Shown here: in pieces, positions 53,398 through 63,726 of the stretch
Position numbering within the stretch: the first letter of the stretch is position 1
Layout: the number at the start of each line of letters is the position of its first letter
Assembly (NCBI RefSeq): GCF_008729015.1
Contig: NZ_RKSM01000001.1
Coordinates: 744,001 to 808,000 of the forward strand
Direction of reading: 5' to 3'
DNA from: Haloarcula sp. CBA1129
GTDB taxonomy: Archaea > Halobacteriota > Halobacteria > Halobacteriales > Haloarculaceae
DNA: 64,000 nucleotides
Program-made: the position numbers and the translations under genes
The notes under the pieces: generated by a model
Database searches by the model: none
Told to the model about the DNA's origin: nothing
Seen by the model: only the letters and a program-made list of their open reading frames with translations

Positions 53398-54798
53398 CAT
53401 TCGTCTTTAGTTAGGCCTCACTCCTCGGTTGCGTAGCAGTAGCGAACGTCTCTTATAAGATCGGTCGTTGCTGATGGATTTTCTGTGCGTCCTCGATTAG
53501 CCGTTCTAACAACGGTGGTGGCGAGTAGCCGAGGTGCTCGCCAAGTTCGTGGAGGATGAGCTGGGCGTGCGACCGGAAGGTCGCAGCTCAGCGTTCCGGC
53601 GGAAACACGATCTCGTCGTCGGCTTGCTCGGTGACCAGATCCAACAGATCACGGCTCACCAGCAGCGACAGCAACGCTGCGTACACCAGAATCTCCACGA
53701 TGTACGTCTTGCTCGTATCGAACTCATCCAGATTGTACTGCGTCTTCAGCTCACGAAACAGCAGTTCTATTTCCCACCGACATCGATAAATCGTCGCTAG
53801 ATCTGCCGGCAGAAACTCCTCTCTCGGCAGATTCGTGATGTAGAGATGGTAGTCGTCGCCGTCCTCGTCGCGGACGCCGACGACACGGAACGTCTTGCTA
53901 TCGTACGATTGCGTGCCCGCGTACTCTCGTCGCTGAAACGTCGCTTCTATCTTAACATCAATGCACTCTCGGTGGAGAGCGTCCACGACATCTTGGATCT
54001 GTTCACCTTCCAAGGGAATGGCGTCGCCACGCCATTCCCGTAATTCCGCCGTTATTTCCGGGTTTGCGTTCGGTTTCAGCCGGCTCACGAAGTAGCTGTC
54101 ATTCTCGTCAATCAGCGCAAAGCGGCGGTACTTGAAGTACACTTGATCGAACAGCACCAACCGGTCTTCTAGCCACGACCCCGTGGAAAACTCGGTGCTG
54201 TCGTGCGCTTTCTCGTCAGTGATGTTGAACCGATTAATCGTCTGGTCGGTGACGTTGTGGAGCAGGTGGACCCTCGCTCCACCCTGCTCCCCTCGCCGTG
54301 GTTCGAACTCCTCTGAGAGAAGCCGGTGCAACCGCAGCACCGTTCCGTCGGCGATCATCACGTCCCTGAATCGGTCGATGTCAGCGTCAACAGCATCAGG
54401 AACAGCGACCTCGTCGATGCCGTGCTCAACGAGCTCGCAGAGATACTCCGCAAAAGTCGGCGTCAGCCGCTGATGGAATCCGCCAGGAGAGAGCGTTCAT
54501 CAGCAGTGGCGTTGTAGCTGCGCCGGAAACCAGCGAGTGTTCGACTCTCGCCTGCGGTGAAGCCGAACACGAATGACCACACGAGAGCGGGCATCTGCGT
54601 TTTCCTGCTGCGTTCGACCACGCCGAGTTCCTCGGCGTGCTCTTCGAGGAACTCGGGGGAAACAGTGTAGTGAGCCGACGCATGATTCTCGATGAGGAGG
54701 CTTCTTGCTGCACACTTGACGCCTCCTCATTCCTCTCGAAAAGATGCCTCGATAAGCCGCTGCTGTCACGCGGTTCGTCTCCTAACTAAAGACGGATG
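53398..54798 (-). mobile_element. ISH8-type (IS4 family) insertion sequence
   Basis: A 1401-bp element. Ends: CATTCGTCTTTAGTTAG at the left and CTAACTAAAGACGGATG at the right (inverted, one mismatch in 17). It is flanked by a perfect 10-bp target duplication, GTAACCGACG at 53388-53397 and 54799-54808. The size, terminal sequence and transposase match ISH8-type elements. The insertion lies at the stop codon of the polyol dehydrogenase; the gene is not changed because the duplication restores the TAA. The transposase is decayed. Confidence 0.92.
53411..54683 (-). pseudogene. Decayed ISH8-type transposase
   Basis: Read leftward from ATG 54683 (MRRLTTLFP). The frame is broken twice near the start: around 54655-54660 in a C-run, and around 54494-54497, where restoring one base joins YNATADE to LSPGGFHQRL and onward. 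It then runs well through DVMIADGTVLRLHRLL, TDEKAHDSTEF, LYITNLPREEFLPADLATIYRCRWEIELLFRELK (in parts) to FPPER. TGA at 53588-53590 stands where related proteins have Trp, and TAA at 53453-53455 where Gln is expected, before the natural end at 53411. It cannot be functional without in-trans help. Confidence 0.9.
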
Positions 54799-55115: not shown

Positions 55116-55501
55116 ATGGAAGTTGATGAAGACGCCGGCATCATCCGACAGAGCGACCTCGAAACCACGACACAGATCGCTACGACCGGCGATGAGGATG
55201 AAGAAACCGAGCGCACTGAGTCGGATCTGCAAGTGTACAGCGACACACTCAATGTGACCGAGCTGTCAGAGACGGATCTGTACGACATTGAGAGTACCGA
55301 TGCGTCCGCAAAGCCGATGTTGACGAGGAGACCAAAGAGACCCGGCTTCAGGGACTGAAAGATCGGCTTGTCGCCAGCGATGCTGACGATGATGAAGCTC
55401 AGCAGCTCCAAGACGAGATTGCGGAGCTCGAAGACCGCATTGAGGAACTGATCTCGTTTGATTCTGGGGCGTCCTATCACACCTCTTCAGCGACCGAATA
55501 A
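55116..55501 (+). pseudogene. Frameshifted acidic coiled-coil protein
   Basis: Starts MEVDEDAGIIRQSDLETTTQ; after about 65 codons the frame must change by one lost base between 55292 and 55358. Downstream the other frame reads VRKADVDEETKETRLQGLKD and LQDEIAELEDRIEELISFDS to a TAA at 55499-55501. Repaired, it would be about 128 aa: a very acidic N-terminal half and a coiled-coil C-terminal half. A sequencing error would give the same picture. No family recognised; it lies just upstream of the iteron region. Confidence 0.6.
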
Positions 55502-55644
55502 GCGCTCATCAGCGGTCTGCTTGTAGTAGTCTGTTCTTGCCTCAAGTGAGCAAACAGCACTTCGTGAGTTCGCGGAGGGAGATACTATGTGTAGCTGTTC
55601 TATCAGTCTGAACTGTCAGCAACAAAAACTCAGGTTCAGACACA

Positions 55645-55987
55645 CACACCAGATTTTGAGTAAGGATTATACGATCAGTGTCGTAGGAGACGAGATGACT
55701 TGCTCTGGAACGAGTTCCTTACTCCAAACTAGGTGTGTTCCTCTAGTCTAGCTGTTCTAGTAAGTAGTAGTGTAGTCCGTGGAGAGACAACGAACGTGTC
55801 GCCACAACCCTCTATGTTGCTTCTCTCCGCACTGGCCTACCTGTCCTTCTTACTCCAAACTAGGTGTGTGTCTCCCTCCATCTTACTCAAAATCTGGTGT
55901 GGGTCAGCTAAGTTTTGTGTAAGAAGGAAACCCTGATATCTATCTTTTCACTTGTTTTCGCGGGCATCTTACTCATAACTAGGTACC
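55645..55987 (+). repeat. Five 20-bp iterons: replication-origin-like region
   Basis: Copies at 55718-55737 and 55849-55868 (identical to each other), 55882-55901, 55968-55987, and one inverted at 55645-55664 that is identical in reverse complement to the 55882 copy. Common core: CTTACTC, then AAA or TAA, then CTAGG or CTGG, then TGTG. The last copy ends 37 bp before the ATG of the orc1/cdc6 gene. The whole 55502-56024 region (523 bp) is non-coding and AT-rich. Repeats of this kind next to an initiator gene mark archaeal origins. Confidence 0.82.
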
Positions 55988-56024
55988 TAAGTTTTATTTC
56001 GCTGACTGCTGTCTAACTCTAATA

Positions 56025-57233
56025 ATGGATAGCGAGGACGGATCAGAGACACTCCACAGCGTATTTGATAGTATCGATAAGAGCGGAGGAAGAATCTTTG
56101 AGCAGCGTGAGATCCTTCAGATTGATTACGTACCCAGTGAAAAACGCATCGTCGGGAGGGATGAACAGATAGAGAAAGTTGCTGAAGAGATCGGGCCAAT
56201 TGTCGTCGGGAAGCCACCGAATTCGATCATCATCTACGGGAAAACCGGATGTGGGAAGTCACTCGTTGCAAAGCACGTCTCCAAGATTGCCCAGGAAGAA
56301 GCTGAAAACCGGGATGTGAAGCTTGCTACAGGATATATTAACTGTCAGCAGGCAAAGGGTAACTCTGACGCTCTGAGCAAATACGGTCGTGCAATCAACC
56401 CACCAGAAAGCGGTGTAAAGTTTCCGGCACGCGGGATTTCAGAGAACGAGTACTTTGAACGGGTGTGGTCGGTCCTGAACGAATTTTATGACGCTGCAAT
56501 CATTGTCTTGGACGAAGTTGACAAACTCAACAACGACGATCTTTTGATGGCCTTGTCAAGAGCCGGGGAAGACGGAAGTGTTGACGTTCCAATTGGAGTG
56601 ATAGCGGTATCAAACAAAATCAACTATCGGGACAAAATGAGCGAACGGACAAAGAGCTCATTCGGCCATAACGAATTTATTTTTGAACCCTACGACGCGG
56701 AGCAAATCCGAGAGATCCTTCAAAATCGGACCGATGCCTTCGTTGACGGCGTCCTTGATGAGGGAGTCATTCCCCGTGCTGCGGCACTGAGCGCCAAGGA
56801 ACATGGAGACGCACGAAAGGCCATGCGCCTCCTCCGATATGCTGGTGACCAAGCGAACAAGGAGAACGCTGAGCGAGTAAAAGAATCACACCTCTCAGAT
56901 GCACGCGCCACAGCAGAGTCTGATCGGTTGCTTGAATTGATTTCTGGGCTTCCGCCCCATAGCAAGCATATTCTAGTCGCGCTAGCGAACCTCAGTCAGA
57001 ACCACCCAGACCGAGAATGGTTCCGGACGATGCGAATACGCGAGATGTATCTCAATGTTTGTGATCAGAGTGGGGCAGACCCGCTTTCAACAGAACGGAC
57101 CCGACAGCTACTCAACGAACTCTGCTTTTTAGAGATTGCAGGGAGTCGACGAGGGACTGGAGAAGGGAAAGGGCACTATAGCCAGTACACGCTCCTGTGG
57201 GACGCAGATATCGTCCTCACACTTGAAACCTGA
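56025..57233 (+). CDS. orc: Orc1/Cdc6 replication initiator (copy 1)
   Basis: 402 aa. AAA+ domain: Walker A GKTGCGKS (72-79), Walker B IIVLDEVDKL (159-168), sensor region IAVSNKINYRDKM, sensor 2 HGDARKAMRLLRYAG. A C-terminal winged helix (REMYLNVCDQSGADPLS, LNELCFLEIAGSRRG) binds origin DNA. It probably recognises the five iterons directly upstream. Lower GC than most genes in the window, as is common for plasmid-type initiators. The MITE is inserted directly after its stop codon. Confidence 0.93.
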   Translation: MDSEDGSETLHSVFDSIDKSGGRIFEQREILQIDYVPSEKRIVGRDEQIEKVAEEIGPIVVGKPPNSIIIYGKTGCGKSLVAKHVSKIAQEEAENRDVKLATGYINCQQAKGNSDALSKYGRAINPPESGVKFPARGISENEYFERVWSVLNEFYDAAIIVLDEVDKLNNDDLLMALSRAGEDGSVDVPIGVIAVSNKINYRDKMSERTKSSFGHNEFIFEPYDAEQIREILQNRTDAFVDGVLDEGVIPRAAALSAKEHGDARKAMRLLRYAGDQANKENAERVKESHLSDARATAESDRLLELISGLPPHSKHILVALANLSQNHPDREWFRTMRIREMYLNVCDQSGADPLSTERTRQLLNELCFLEIAGSRRGTGEGKGHYSQYTLLWDADIVLTLET

Positions 57234-57466: not shown

Positions 57467-57629
57467 GTTGCAGTCTTTTTTGTCCCGGCATGGCGGATTC
57501 TCTGGGTTTGCGCTCATTTCTGAGACATAACCAGAACTCGCTACGTACCCAACTGTTCTCACCAATATTCTATTTTTGCACCCACAGCCGGGTGAGGGGT
57601 GCTCCAGCGGGAGCGTCCTGACAGTACCC

Positions 57630-58211
57630 ATGGCATCGAAAACCACCAACAGCAGTCAGACCGGAAAACAGGCAAAACAAAGTGAATCGCAGTCGTTCCC
57701 AGAGTTGACAGTCCAAGCCGAAGGGACCGCAGACCGACTTCGGCGCGTGAATGAAACTGGGAAGGCCGATTGTCTCGAAACGGTCGAAGTTGAGCTTGCT
57801 GTTGAGTACGTGATCGACTCATACGATGAGTGGTGCAGTCTCATCGACCCGGACTACGTCAAACACGGACGGACCGTTGAGAAGGGCACGGTCATTGACG
57901 ACTTGCTCGACAGACTCGAAGAACACTACCGTCGGCAATCGTCCTCAAGATATGAGGCCTCAGACTGGAAGCTGACAGTAACTGGCTCAGCAACCGCTTG
58001 GAGACGCCTCTTCATGGAGTGTATGCAACTGCGTGGCTCAGATCTCGACCGTGCCGACAAAGGCACTCTTCGTCTCAAGCAGTTGCTCGCCGCAGACCTT
58101 GCAGACACAGGCGCAGCGCTGGCTGCCCTCGAACTCATCAACCAGCACGGCCTCGACGCGTCACCGGACAGCTTCATCGAAGAAGTCGCAGACGGCACAG
58201 GCTGCGAGTAG
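57630..58211 (+). CDS. Hypothetical protein of the replicator region
   Basis: 193 aa from ATG 57630 (MASKTTNSSQTGKQAK); longer in-frame starts give an unnatural N-terminus. A disordered Ser/Lys/Gln start is followed by a helical body (LAVEYVIDSYDEWCSLIDPDY, RLFMECMQLRGSDLDRADKG, LAADLADTGAALAALELINQ). No motif recognised. It lies 66 bp before the zinc-ribbon gene and may form a unit with it. Confidence 0.7.
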   Translation: MASKTTNSSQTGKQAKQSESQSFPELTVQAEGTADRLRRVNETGKADCLETVEVELAVEYVIDSYDEWCSLIDPDYVKHGRTVEKGTVIDDLLDRLEEHYRRQSSSRYEASDWKLTVTGSATAWRRLFMECMQLRGSDLDRADKGTLRLKQLLAADLADTGAALAALELINQHGLDASPDSFIEEVADGTGCE

Positions 58212-58276
58212 CCAGCTCACGCCCAGTCTCGGCTGCATTCGTTTTCTGTGACCCTCATGGCTGGAGTTTAAATACG

Positions 58277-59287
58277 ATGACGAACGCAACCAAGCGTGTG
58301 ACTGATCGGAATCCTGAATACGACCCCGCAGACATTCGAGGTGCAGCGAGTTCTGACCCTGAAACACGGGAAAACGGGCGGGAACGGGTCCTCAAATCCA
58401 CCGGCTATCCCAGTCAGACAGAGGATGAGACTCGCACCTGTTCGACCTGCGGACAGGAGATTCCACAAGATAACCGCCAGTGTCCGTTCTGCGCTCAAAC
58501 CGGTGTCTCAGAGATTCCTTCCGGCGATCAGGATAGCAGCCCACTTGGGGAGTGGACGTTCGGCCGGGTCGTACTCGCACTCGTCGAAGCGAACACTACC
58601 TTCCACGCACGAGCACTGGGCGCTGCGGCCTTCTCCGTGTCCAGTAGCATCGCGAGTGGCGAGGATACCTCTCACGGCACGGTGAAGTGTCGAGCGGCCT
58701 TTGGCACCGAGCCAGCCTCCAATCTCACTCAGGGCTGGCCCGACCTGCCGACTGAAACCACGATCGACGAGGAAACTGGACAGGCGCTCTTGGAGACAGC
58801 CGACGAGCAGACCGATTGGGACGGCGACGTCCAGCCACGGATCTATCTCGAGGACGGGACACCAATCACCGACCGCTCGGAGTTCCAGCGCCTCACAGAG
58901 GAGTTCCGACAGGACGATGGGACGTACTGGCTTGTGCCCGGCGTCGTACAGCGCCACCAGGCGAGAGCCGAACCGGAGATAGTTGGTATCGGGTTTTACT
59001 GTCGGCAGTGTGGCGCCGTGACGGGACACGAATCCCACGGGTTCGATGGCTTCGAGTGCCATCCCCATCTCGACCGTATGATCTGGACCTGTAGAGAGTG
59101 TGGACAGCACCGACACGAGCCCGAGCAGGAGGGTGACACGGAGGAGGTTACGGGCTATGAGCACCTTCCCGACGGCGTCTCACCCGAGGACATCCACGGC
59201 GACGAGCCAGACTTCCAGGAGCAAGAGTTCCAAGACCAGATCAGTGCCTATCGCGAGCGGAACGGATTCCTCCCGTGGGAGCGGTAA
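58277..59287 (+). CDS. Zinc-ribbon protein of haloarchaeal plasmid type
   Basis: 336 aa from ATG 58277 (MTNATKRVTDRNPE). Two zinc-binding regions: CSTCGQEIPQDNRQCPFC (residues about 55-72) and, near 240-275, CRQCG...CHPH...CRECGQH with His. The middle (GEWTFGRVVLALVEANTTFH) is alpha/beta. No catalytic motif is seen. Proteins of this kind occur near haloarchaeal replication genes; DNA binding is a guess. TTTAAATACG just before the ATG could be a TATA box only if translation starts further down. Confidence 0.72.
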   Translation: MTNATKRVTDRNPEYDPADIRGAASSDPETRENGRERVLKSTGYPSQTEDETRTCSTCGQEIPQDNRQCPFCAQTGVSEIPSGDQDSSPLGEWTFGRVVLALVEANTTFHARALGAAAFSVSSSIASGEDTSHGTVKCRAAFGTEPASNLTQGWPDLPTETTIDEETGQALLETADEQTDWDGDVQPRIYLEDGTPITDRSEFQRLTEEFRQDDGTYWLVPGVVQRHQARAEPEIVGIGFYCRQCGAVTGHESHGFDGFECHPHLDRMIWTCRECGQHRHEPEQEGDTEEVTGYEHLPDGVSPEDIHGDEPDFQEQEFQDQISAYRERNGFLPWER

Positions 59288-61080: not shown

Positions 61081-62343
61081 TCAGACGTAGGACATCAACC
61101 GAGCCTGCTGGGCCTCGTCGGGATCAGGGACGAGGTCGTAGCGCTCCAGTGTCGATTCAGAGCCATCCTGATCCTGTTTGAGCCCTTCGAAAACGAGTTC
61201 GGGGGAGACTTCCAGCGTGTGGATGTACGAACGGCCACCCGCCCGGCCGAGGTTGCGCTCGTCACGCTCAAGCAAGCCATAAAGGCGGATCGAGTCCAGG
61301 AAGTCGTTGACTCGACGCTTCGAGCGGGGTTCGTAGCCACACACCTCACAAATATTCTCATAGACCTGGTAGATGTTCTTCGCACGGGGAGAGGCCTCGT
61401 CGTCGATATTGAGGAAGGCCGTCGCGAGCAACGCGAGTTTCATCTGTGAGGTGAGCTGTTCGCGAACGATTGTGAGGACGCGCTGTTCCTCAACGCGGCT
61501 GCCAGCCTCTTCGACGTGGGCTTTAGTGACCTGCCCGGCATCGTGTTTGCGTGCGATATTCCCAGCCGTCTCAAGCAGATCGAGGGCCTCGCGAGCGTCG
61601 CCCTGTTCTTGGGCGGCCCGGGCGGCACACAGTTGGATCACACCCTCGTCGATAATCCCGTCCCGGAACACGAGATCGCCGTAGTGCTGGAGGATATCAG
61701 TGAGTTCGGTGGCATCGTAGGGCGAAAAGAAAATTTCGTACTCACAGAGCGTGCTCTTGACCCGCGGGTCCAGCGAGTCTTTGAACATATGGTTGTTCGA
61801 GATGCCGATGACACCGACGCGGGTGTCCTCCAGTGACCCCATCTTGCGAGCTCTAGGGAACTCATACAGGAGTTTGTCGTTGTCCGCACCGAGCATATCG
61901 ATTTCGTCTAAAACAACGACGACATCGCCCTCGAGGTCGTCGAGTTCGTCGTACAGTGTCGACCAGAGGAAGCCCTTTGTCGGTCCCTGTTCGGGGACCT
62001 GATCGTCTGGGGGCCGGAGCTGGTTAACGAGCGAGATGAGGACACTGAAGATACTGTCGTCCTTGTTGCAGTTGATTTCGAGTATCGTCACCGGGACATC
62101 GTGCTGGGCGGCTTCGGCGCGGAGGAACTGCATCATTTTCTTCGTGACGACGGTCTTGCCGTTGCCCGTTTGCCCGTAGATGAAGACGTTGTTCGGGCCG
62201 AACCCTTCGATGACATCCTGCAGGGCTTCAGAATAGCGGCTGACTTCGTCTTCGCGACAGAGAATCGTCTCGGGGGTATAATCCTCATCGAGAGGCCGCT
62301 TATCGGCGAAGATTTTCCCAGGCTCGTCAAACGGGGAATCCAT
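61081..62343 (-). CDS. orc: Orc1/Cdc6 replication initiator (copy 2)
   Basis: 420 aa from ATG 62343 (MDSPFDEPGKIF). The frame is open to 62415, but that part (MEQEKHSKHSNWGF...) is made of origin repeats and would place the start upstream of the TATA-like TTTATTAT (about 62366-62373). Walker A GQTGNGKT (57-64), Walker B VVLDEIDML (144-152), sensor GVIGISNNHMFKDSL, sensor 2 QGDAREALDLLETAG, C-terminal winged helix (IYQVYENICEVCGYEPRS). It reads leftward from the second origin and is only distantly similar to copy 1. Confidence 0.93.
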   Translation of the reverse strand: MDSPFDEPGKIFADKRPLDEDYTPETILCREDEVSRYSEALQDVIEGFGPNNVFIYGQTGNGKTVVTKKMMQFLRAEAAQHDVPVTILEINCNKDDSIFSVLISLVNQLRPPDDQVPEQGPTKGFLWSTLYDELDDLEGDVVVVLDEIDMLGADNDKLLYEFPRARKMGSLEDTRVGVIGISNNHMFKDSLDPRVKSTLCEYEIFFSPYDATELTDILQHYGDLVFRDGIIDEGVIQLCAARAAQEQGDAREALDLLETAGNIARKHDAGQVTKAHVEEAGSRVEEQRVLTIVREQLTSQMKLALLATAFLNIDDEASPRAKNIYQVYENICEVCGYEPRSKRRVNDFLDSIRLYGLLERDERNLGRAGGRSYIHTLEVSPELVFEGLKQDQDGSESTLERYDLVPDPDEAQQARLMSYV

Positions 62344-62383
62344 GTTAGATGTATTCTCAGACCAATCGATAATAAATCCCCAG

Positions 62384-62545
62384 TTCGAGTGTTTCGAGTG
62401 TTTCTCCTGTTCCAATGCATGGTTGCCTATTGACTCCCCCTGTTTCGAGTGTAACCATCATATAGAGAGGCTGTATCGATGATTATGGGCGTTCACCTGT
62501 TCGTGGTGAAGCAGTGAATGTTCGTCACCCCCCATTTCGAGTGTT
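62384..62545 (+). repeat. Origin-recognition-box-like repeats, cluster A
   Basis: A doubled TTCGAGTGT (62384-62392 and 62393-62401, behind CCCCAG), TCCCCCTGTTTCGAGTGT (62435-62452) and CACCCCCCATTTCGAGTGTT (62526-62545). A run of C (G-string on the other strand) plus TTTCGA is the known signature of archaeal ORB elements. They lie directly upstream of the second orc gene. The rest of 62344-62764 (421 bp) is non-coding. Confidence 0.82.
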
Positions 62546-62764
62546 CTTTTAGTTTTGGACAGCGGGCTGTGCTGGAGAGTTGACAGTGGGACTTCGGATT
62601 GTCTCCAAGCAGATGAGTGGGACATGACTGACCGACAGGCTTCCCTCAGCCTCCTACCGGTCATCTGTGAGTGTTCTGTATCGAGGAACCAGACAGAGAG
62701 GTAATCTACTAATGCTGTTCAGGACACACAAATAATATGAAAGAACGGTAACGAGGTGACAGAC

Positions 62765-63241
62765 ATGTCTGGTGTCGAATCGGTGCTAATCAAGGCGATT
62801 TTAAGCAGTGTATCAAGCAAGGGAACCTCTCTATTATTTTCTGAAGCGATAGAACGACTTCAAGAAGAAAAGGATCTATCTGAAGATGAAATTCAATATA
62901 TTGATCGGGCAGTCCAAGTTATCATAGACATCGAACTCACATATAAATATAATATTGAAAATAGAGATGATCCTGATGTAGAGACTTTTTTGCAGGATTT
63001 AGATAGTGCGGCGAAGGAGGCTACAGAGCTGGAGGTCATCTCCGAAATGAAAGGGTTCGATCCCAAGAAGGGCGGAAGTAGTGTACTAATAGGAGTTGCG
63101 TCCGGTATGGCCGCAATATCTGACAATTACGCAGGTGTCAGCGACCGAGATGATATCCCTCAGGATACTACCCCGGACGAACTGTACCAAAGCTCTGCAG
63201 CCGCCCGAAATAGTATGCCGATTTTTGCAGATACAGAGTAG
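62765..63241 (+). CDS. AT-rich hypothetical protein inside the origin
   Basis: 158 aa from ATG 62765 (MSGVESVLIKAILSS); a GTG 9 bp upstream is possible. Composition is unlike neighbours: many Lys, Ile, Asn, and codons such as ATA and TAT. Helical N-terminal half (LFSEAIERLQEEKDLSEDEI, AVQVIIDIELTYKYNIENRD), then a short Gly/Ala-rich hydrophobic stretch (SSVLIGVASGMAAISDNYAG) and a polar tail. No family recognised. It lies between the two ORB clusters, so it is probably foreign DNA or a gene overlapping an unwinding region. Confidence 0.65.
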   Translation: MSGVESVLIKAILSSVSSKGTSLLFSEAIERLQEEKDLSEDEIQYIDRAVQVIIDIELTYKYNIENRDDPDVETFLQDLDSAAKEATELEVISEMKGFDPKKGGSSVLIGVASGMAAISDNYAGVSDRDDIPQDTTPDELYQSSAAARNSMPIFADTE

Positions 63242-63398
63242 CCTGTTGTCCTGTGATGTCATCTCCTGCTTTACTGCACCCTGCAGCACTAACTGAGACG
63301 GTAGATTTGCACACTTACTGACCGAGTGATCCAATCATTTTTTCATGAAGCAGTTTTCGTGAGAGAGATTCTGGTGGTGAGATCCTCCGATTCACACA

Positions 63399-63726
63399 CA
63401 CCCCCCGTTTCGAGTGTTCTGCGGGAATCATCTGTTTCCCCAGGAATCACATCTCGAACGGCTTCGATTCCACCGAGAGATGGCTGCTACGGCGAAGATC
63501 AGAGAGTGAGTTTCGGGGGTCCAGTGATCGAGTGGTGTCGCTGTCCTGAATGTTATATATATTCTTTTCTACTAGGTAACGTTAGTAGTAGTAGTAGACG
63601 GCTCACTCCTATGATAAACACTCGAAACGGGGGGTGATCGGAACTGTCTTTATATACGAATCGGGCGGAACCGCTCTTCCGTCGGAGAGACTGTCGCTCG
63701 GAGCAAAACACTCGAAACGGGGGGTG
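63399..63726 (-). repeat. Origin-recognition-box-like repeats, cluster B
   Basis: CACCCCCCGTTTCGAGTGTT at 63399-63418 (same orientation as cluster A) and the reverse complement at 63617-63636 and 63707-63726; the core of all three is identical. Between them is a TAG-repeat (TAGTAGTAGTAG near 63583-63596) and AT-rich DNA. 63242-63748 (507 bp) contains no gene. Opposed boxes around AT-rich DNA are the usual arrangement of an archaeal origin. Confidence 0.82.

Follow-up and report, generated by a model that had tools for sequence, protein, structure and literature searches.

An Orc1/Cdc6-linked candidate origin of predicted plasmid type, with ORB variants lacking the G-string, in a Haloarcula chromosome

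Background

It is established for archaea generally that Orc1/Cdc6 proteins bind at origins, that the DNA there is unwound and that MCM is loaded. Within the haloarchaea a linkage specificity between Orc proteins and their ORB boxes was described in 2012, in a survey that used a G-string run at the end of the box as a filter (PMC3528665). Genetic proof that an origin depends on its cognate Orc came in 2014 for other pairs in Har. hispanica, and mutation of the G-string at oriC1 of the same species abolished ARS activity (PMC3936714). The integration of plasmids has further been proposed as a route for the variable origins of Haloarcula (PMC4441112). Among plasmids, pNG100 of Har. marismortui is given by Wu et al. 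2012 one Cdc6 and one associated predicted origin and does not bear their mark for replicons with a rep gene; it is listed there as an origin despite the survey's G-string filter (PMC3528665).

The locus analysed here lies in a 64-kb stretch of Haloarcula sp. CBA1129 DNA (the window, C1:744001-808000), on a contig of 3.475 Mb where an orc of the oriC1 type is found as well. It resembles the locus of pNG100 (33.3 kb; NC_006389.1, 19669-20877) in its Orc, which is 91% identical, and in having the same boxes upstream in the same orientation and at near-identical spacing, but the pNG100 copy is on a 33-kb plasmid and the window copy on the 3.475-Mb contig with oriC1. The other named plasmids with the Orc/box pair are pNYT1 of Har. 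taiwanensis (CP019156.1) and pHsi139 of Har. sinaiiensis (NZ_CP073372.1), which share with the window an Orc of about 98% identity, origin DNA of 93-94% identity and neighbour genes; they differ in being plasmid-borne, and in pNYT1 the sugar-transport block has the opposite orientation to its counterpart in the window. Haloarchaeal oriC1 (L039, C1:2927311-2928552) likewise has an orc with inverted upstream boxes, the same register of the ORB core and 5' ends that face inward, whereas its G-strings read GAAGGGG(T)GGGG, its Orc belongs to another clade and the window boxes end in GGTGTG. The oriC2-cdc6E pair and other cognate pairs of Har. hispanica also link an origin with family-specific boxes to one cdc6, although there the cognate dependence is genetic (PMC3936714) and here it is read from sequence alone. 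As the pNG100 origin was listed in 2012, the origin family had already been predicted and the window locus is largely ordinary; apart from the absence of the G-string and the presence of a plasmid replicator in a chromosome, it follows the published pattern.

The orc1/cdc6 gene and its upstream boxes

The features of the locus, in window coordinates, are:

55645-55664, minus strand: ORB-like box R1, CTTACTCAAAATCTGGTGTG; kept in place in nine of ten aligned orthologous loci
55665-55717, no strand: spacer of 53 bp between R1 and R2, 53% AT; candidate site of initial unwinding
55718-55737, plus strand: ORB-like box R2, CTTACTCCAAACTAGGTGTG; conserved in the ortholog alignment
55849-55868, plus strand: ORB-like box R3, same sequence as R2; conserved in the ortholog alignment
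55882-55901, plus strand: ORB-like box R4, same sequence as R1 in the opposite orientation
55904-55923, minus strand: weaker sixth box facing R4, CTTACACAAAACTTAGCTGA; site kept in orthologs, up to CTTACTCAAAATTTGGTCAG in one of them (L004)
55968-55987, plus strand: degenerate box R5 next to the promoter, CTTACTCATAACTAGGTACC; probably a site of autoregulation
55991-55999, plus strand: TATA-like element, GTTTTATTT, about 26-34 bp 5' of the ATG; conserved in the alignment
56025-57233, plus strand: orc1/cdc6 initiator gene, intact; its 402-aa product has AAA+ and winged-helix domains

The product of the gene matches TIGR02928 at 434.7 bits (cut-off 181.3) and has Cdc6_lid and Cdc6_C domains (PF22703, PF09079), with the DNA-bound Orc structures 2v1u and 2qby among its sequence relatives. 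Against the plasmid orthologs its dN/dS is about 0.05, which points to strong purifying selection on the gene. The TATA-like element is likely to be the promoter of a leaderless orc transcript.

A preliminary description had placed five 20-bp repeats, with two exact pairs among them, before an orc1/cdc6 gene. The intact gene does lie directly downstream and the pairs are present (55718/55849 and 55645/55882, the latter inverted), and the count of five stands, with the addition of the weaker inverted sixth copy at 55904-55923, which had been missed. Together the six boxes span about 340 bp 5' of the gene. R1 on the minus strand and R2 on the plus strand form a head-to-head pair, R3, R4 and R5 lie on the plus strand and the sixth box is inverted, with irregular spacing between the boxes (131, 33 and 86).

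Chance repeats are ruled out by dinucleotide shuffles, with a longest exact repeat of 21 nt within 55600-56024 and, in 500 shuffles of that region, a longest of 17 and mostly 8-9. Throughout the 64-kb window, on either strand, the only repeated 20-mers are the R2/R3 and R1/R4 pairs and the array that accompanies the other orc at 63.4-63.7 kb. Searched across the 4.05-Mb genome with at most two mismatches, CTTACTCNNAAYYNGGTGTG finds only the four exact sites here and two identical orphan sites with two mismatches, and the reversed pattern, used as a control in the same genome under the same limit, finds 0 matches. The orphan sites (L055, C1:921646; L056, C2:6002) are ORB-like and read TTCACTCGAAATCTGGTGTG, with an inverted CCGGAAACAGTGGTGTG nearby; they lie 5' of a paralog of the ORF at 57576-58211, which is itself downstream of the orc gene.

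Conservation and the linkage of Orc and boxes

An Orc ortholog of at least 90% identity occurs in 10 of 32 Haloarcula genomes, and exact matches to the box motif are found in exactly the same ten, with none in the 22 others; this co-occurrence is partly trivial, because gene and boxes are adjacent and travel together. Nine of the ten orthologous loci preserve the boxes in the same order, on the same strands and at the same spacing. In the tenth (L009 of genome G010; L067, G010:C4, about 85397-87005) R2 and R3 are parted by some 1.5 kb of inserted DNA, and the boxes survive. Mean identity across the ten loci is 0.82-0.97 for R1-R5 and 0.79 for the sixth box, with spacers and upstream DNA at 0.45-0.64.

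The pattern at position 8 of the boxes, A in R1 and R4 and C in R2 and R3, is kept in nearly all orthologs (exchanges occur in L007 and L010), so that the subtypes appear ancestral and no fresh duplication. Recent copying as the source of the two exact subtypes was rejected on this ground, and a box limited to one species or newly duplicated was rejected from its conservation in ten genomes. A second copy of the orc, interrupted but with its box array retained, is present at G014:C3:4810-6007 (L069); the 363-kb replicon that bears it also has the intact copy.

Beyond the orthologs, relatives with 52-59% Orc identity have related but different boxes, CTAACTCGGAAYCNGGTGTG or TYGACTCCAAATCTGGTGTG, most of them with a head-to-head pair around a spacer of 39-55 bp, and those near 47% identity have mostly TTTCACCGGAAACNNGGTGTG. 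The similarity of the boxes is correlated with Orc identity over 33 loci (Mantel r 0.86, 0 of 5000 permutations) and likewise after dereplication to 19 loci (r 0.82, again 0 of 5000); a scan of the genome contigs added only one further locus. The boxes beside the remaining Orcs of this genome are unrelated to these. The Orc/box pairing predicted in the window is the linkage specificity that has been published for haloarchaea.

The G-string and the class of the boxes

The repeats had been said to lack the G-string of standard archaeal origin boxes, which is literally true, with no run of at least four Gs in the boxes and GGTGTG in the G-string position. Taking each box with its flanks, the median longest G run is 2-3.5 in the orthologs, whereas six further Orc families from the same genome have medians of 4-6. 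When aligned on the AAAC core, oriC1 (L039) reads ...GGAAACGAAGGGGTGGGG and the window boxes ...CCAAACTAGGTGTG, and the latter keep the register of the ORB core YAC-SS-AAAC-NN-GG. That the absence is unique to this locus was rejected, since the own-genome families L031, L034 and L038 also have no regular run of at least four Gs at the box end; the same is found for L016-L018, L020-L024, L027 and L028, and most relatives at 47-59% identity are without a G-string. The absence is therefore a property of a clade and not a peculiarity of the locus, the putative ORB boxes belonging to a broad haloarchaeal clade ending in GGTGTG.

Two terms of the preliminary description find no support in this comparison. 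The sequence of the repeats was called unusual, yet many boxes of the wider clade end in GGTGTG, and published Orc/ORB pairs are as a rule specific to a family. The label iteron-type is a misnomer for ORB variants with an inverted core pair, irregular spacing and an adjacent protein that is Orc1/Cdc6 and not Rep. The suggested distinct specificity class holds only in so far as the locus has an ORB variant of its own, as all haloarchaeal Orc families do.

A predicted plasmid-type replicator

In all probability the locus is a self-contained, Orc1/Cdc6-dependent replicator of the haloarchaeal plasmid type, now an additional and possibly dormant chromosomal origin. This reading starts from what is observed, namely the boxes, their conservation and exclusivity, the integrity of the gene, the purifying selection on it and the distribution on plasmids. 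The Orc1/Cdc6 from 56025-57233 would bind its own family-specific ORB variants, CTTACTCMAAAYYNGGTGTG, these being the head-to-head R1 and R2 together with R3, R4 and the weak inverted sixth box, and the bound protein would then melt nearby DNA and load MCM. R5 abuts the TATA-like box and its position is kept in orthologs, which suggests self-repression, whereby Orc on R5 may repress its own gene and so limit initiation. The unit probably arrived with plasmid DNA and, now in the main chromosome, may fire there.

The earlier prediction of an Orc-adjacent origin with its own boxes is well supported by the conservation in ten genomes, by the correlation of Orc and boxes and by pNG100, where tblastn finds one place for the Orc and this is the only recognisable initiator. 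Ten pNG100 proteins were scanned, mostly hypothetical, and gave no match to a replication-initiator (Rep) family; one of them gave OB-fold/RPA-like matches. The window locus is a good candidate origin, almost certainly of the plasmid type. Some points count against the replicator reading. With an AT content of just 53%, the spacer between R1 and R2 shows no pronounced AT-rich unwinding element, the G-string, which is essential at Har. hispanica oriC1 (PMC3936714), is missing from the window boxes, and origins integrated into Haloarcula chromosomes may be dormant or broken (PMC4441112). The most AT-rich stretch is 55921-56000 (62-65% AT), beside the promoter, and cumulative GC skew in the window has its minimum at 55187, with small amplitude.

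Genomic setting and alternative explanations

The window matches Haloarcula plasmids at 40.4-53.4 kb and 55.1-60.6 kb, and pNYT1 holds both matching blocks, the sugar-transport one being the block found inverted; the matches to pNYT1 and pHsi139 extend past the window. A remnant of an IS4 transposase lies at 53588-54361 and the upstream gene is truncated, which together with the plasmid matches makes the region look like integrated plasmid material. The plasmid-like DNA can be followed over 40364-60640, with matches to pNYT1, pHsi139, pHH400 and other Haloarcula plasmids.

Such a setting raises the prospect, to which we give an even chance as a sub-case of the replicator reading, that the copy is what remains, dormant or decaying, of a plasmid origin that became integrated, and that the chromosome relies on oriC1 and others. 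The rearranged, plasmid-like flanks with their IS4 remnant and truncated gene are in keeping with this, and there are documented cases of dormant or deficient origins in Haloarcula (PMC4441112). The gene and all the boxes are nevertheless intact and the dN/dS of about 0.05 speaks against decay, though most of the divergence from the plasmid copies could predate integration.

An improbable alternative is that the Orc homolog is a DNA-binding regulator, like Orc1-2 in some archaea, and not an initiator, with the boxes as operators for its own and neighbouring promoters. R5 does abut the orc promoter, haloarchaeal genomes have more orc genes than potential origins (PMC3936714) and non-initiator Orc1 paralogs exist (PMC9738581). 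A regulator would, however, leave unexplained why six boxes are spread over 340 bp at conserved distances, with a head-to-head pair at their core. Near-exact boxes are absent from other promoters genome-wide, and on pNG100 no initiator other than the Orc/box pair is recognisable.

It is very improbable that the boxes are genuine iterons of a plasmid Rep, or titration sites that have nothing to do with the neighbouring Orc. Direct repeats do make up four of the six, but there is no known Rep nearby, and the boxes, which include an inverted pair, have the ORB core in register and covary with the Orc sequence. An iteron/Rep origin was rejected because the gene beside these inverted ORB variants is orc1/cdc6.

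As a plasmid-type replicator the locus is a further example of such a unit lodged in a Haloarcula chromosome. It also offers a natural Orc/ORB pair, with ten orthologs and a 33-kb plasmid without other recognisable initiator, that lacks the G-string essential at Har. hispanica oriC1, and is a handy system for asking which protein contacts recognise the box at the G-string position. It is conceivable, if rather doubtful, that a widespread haloarchaeal Orc clade, at ORBs with GGTGTG in place of the G-string, initiates through changed contacts of the initiator-specific motif, that filters based on G runs, like the one in the 2012 survey, may omit such origins and that the chromosomal copy is an active, recently acquired origin.

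Other features of the window

A second orc1/cdc6 gene lies 4 kb away on the minus strand (61081-62415, within a unit at 61081-63726). Its own array has a full G-string, with AACACTCGAAACGGGGGGTG at about 62430, 62525, 63399, 63617 and 63707. The window thus contains a pair of Orc/ORB units, of which only this second one has the G-string. A copy of this second orc that scores equally is found on the 12-kb contig C2 (9743-10843). The ORF at 58130-59284 gives a weak match to the NCBIfam 'biosurfactant protein 1' family (MBSP1; 130 bits, cut-off 320), and this MBSP1-like ORF is near the 56025-57233 orc on related plasmids too.
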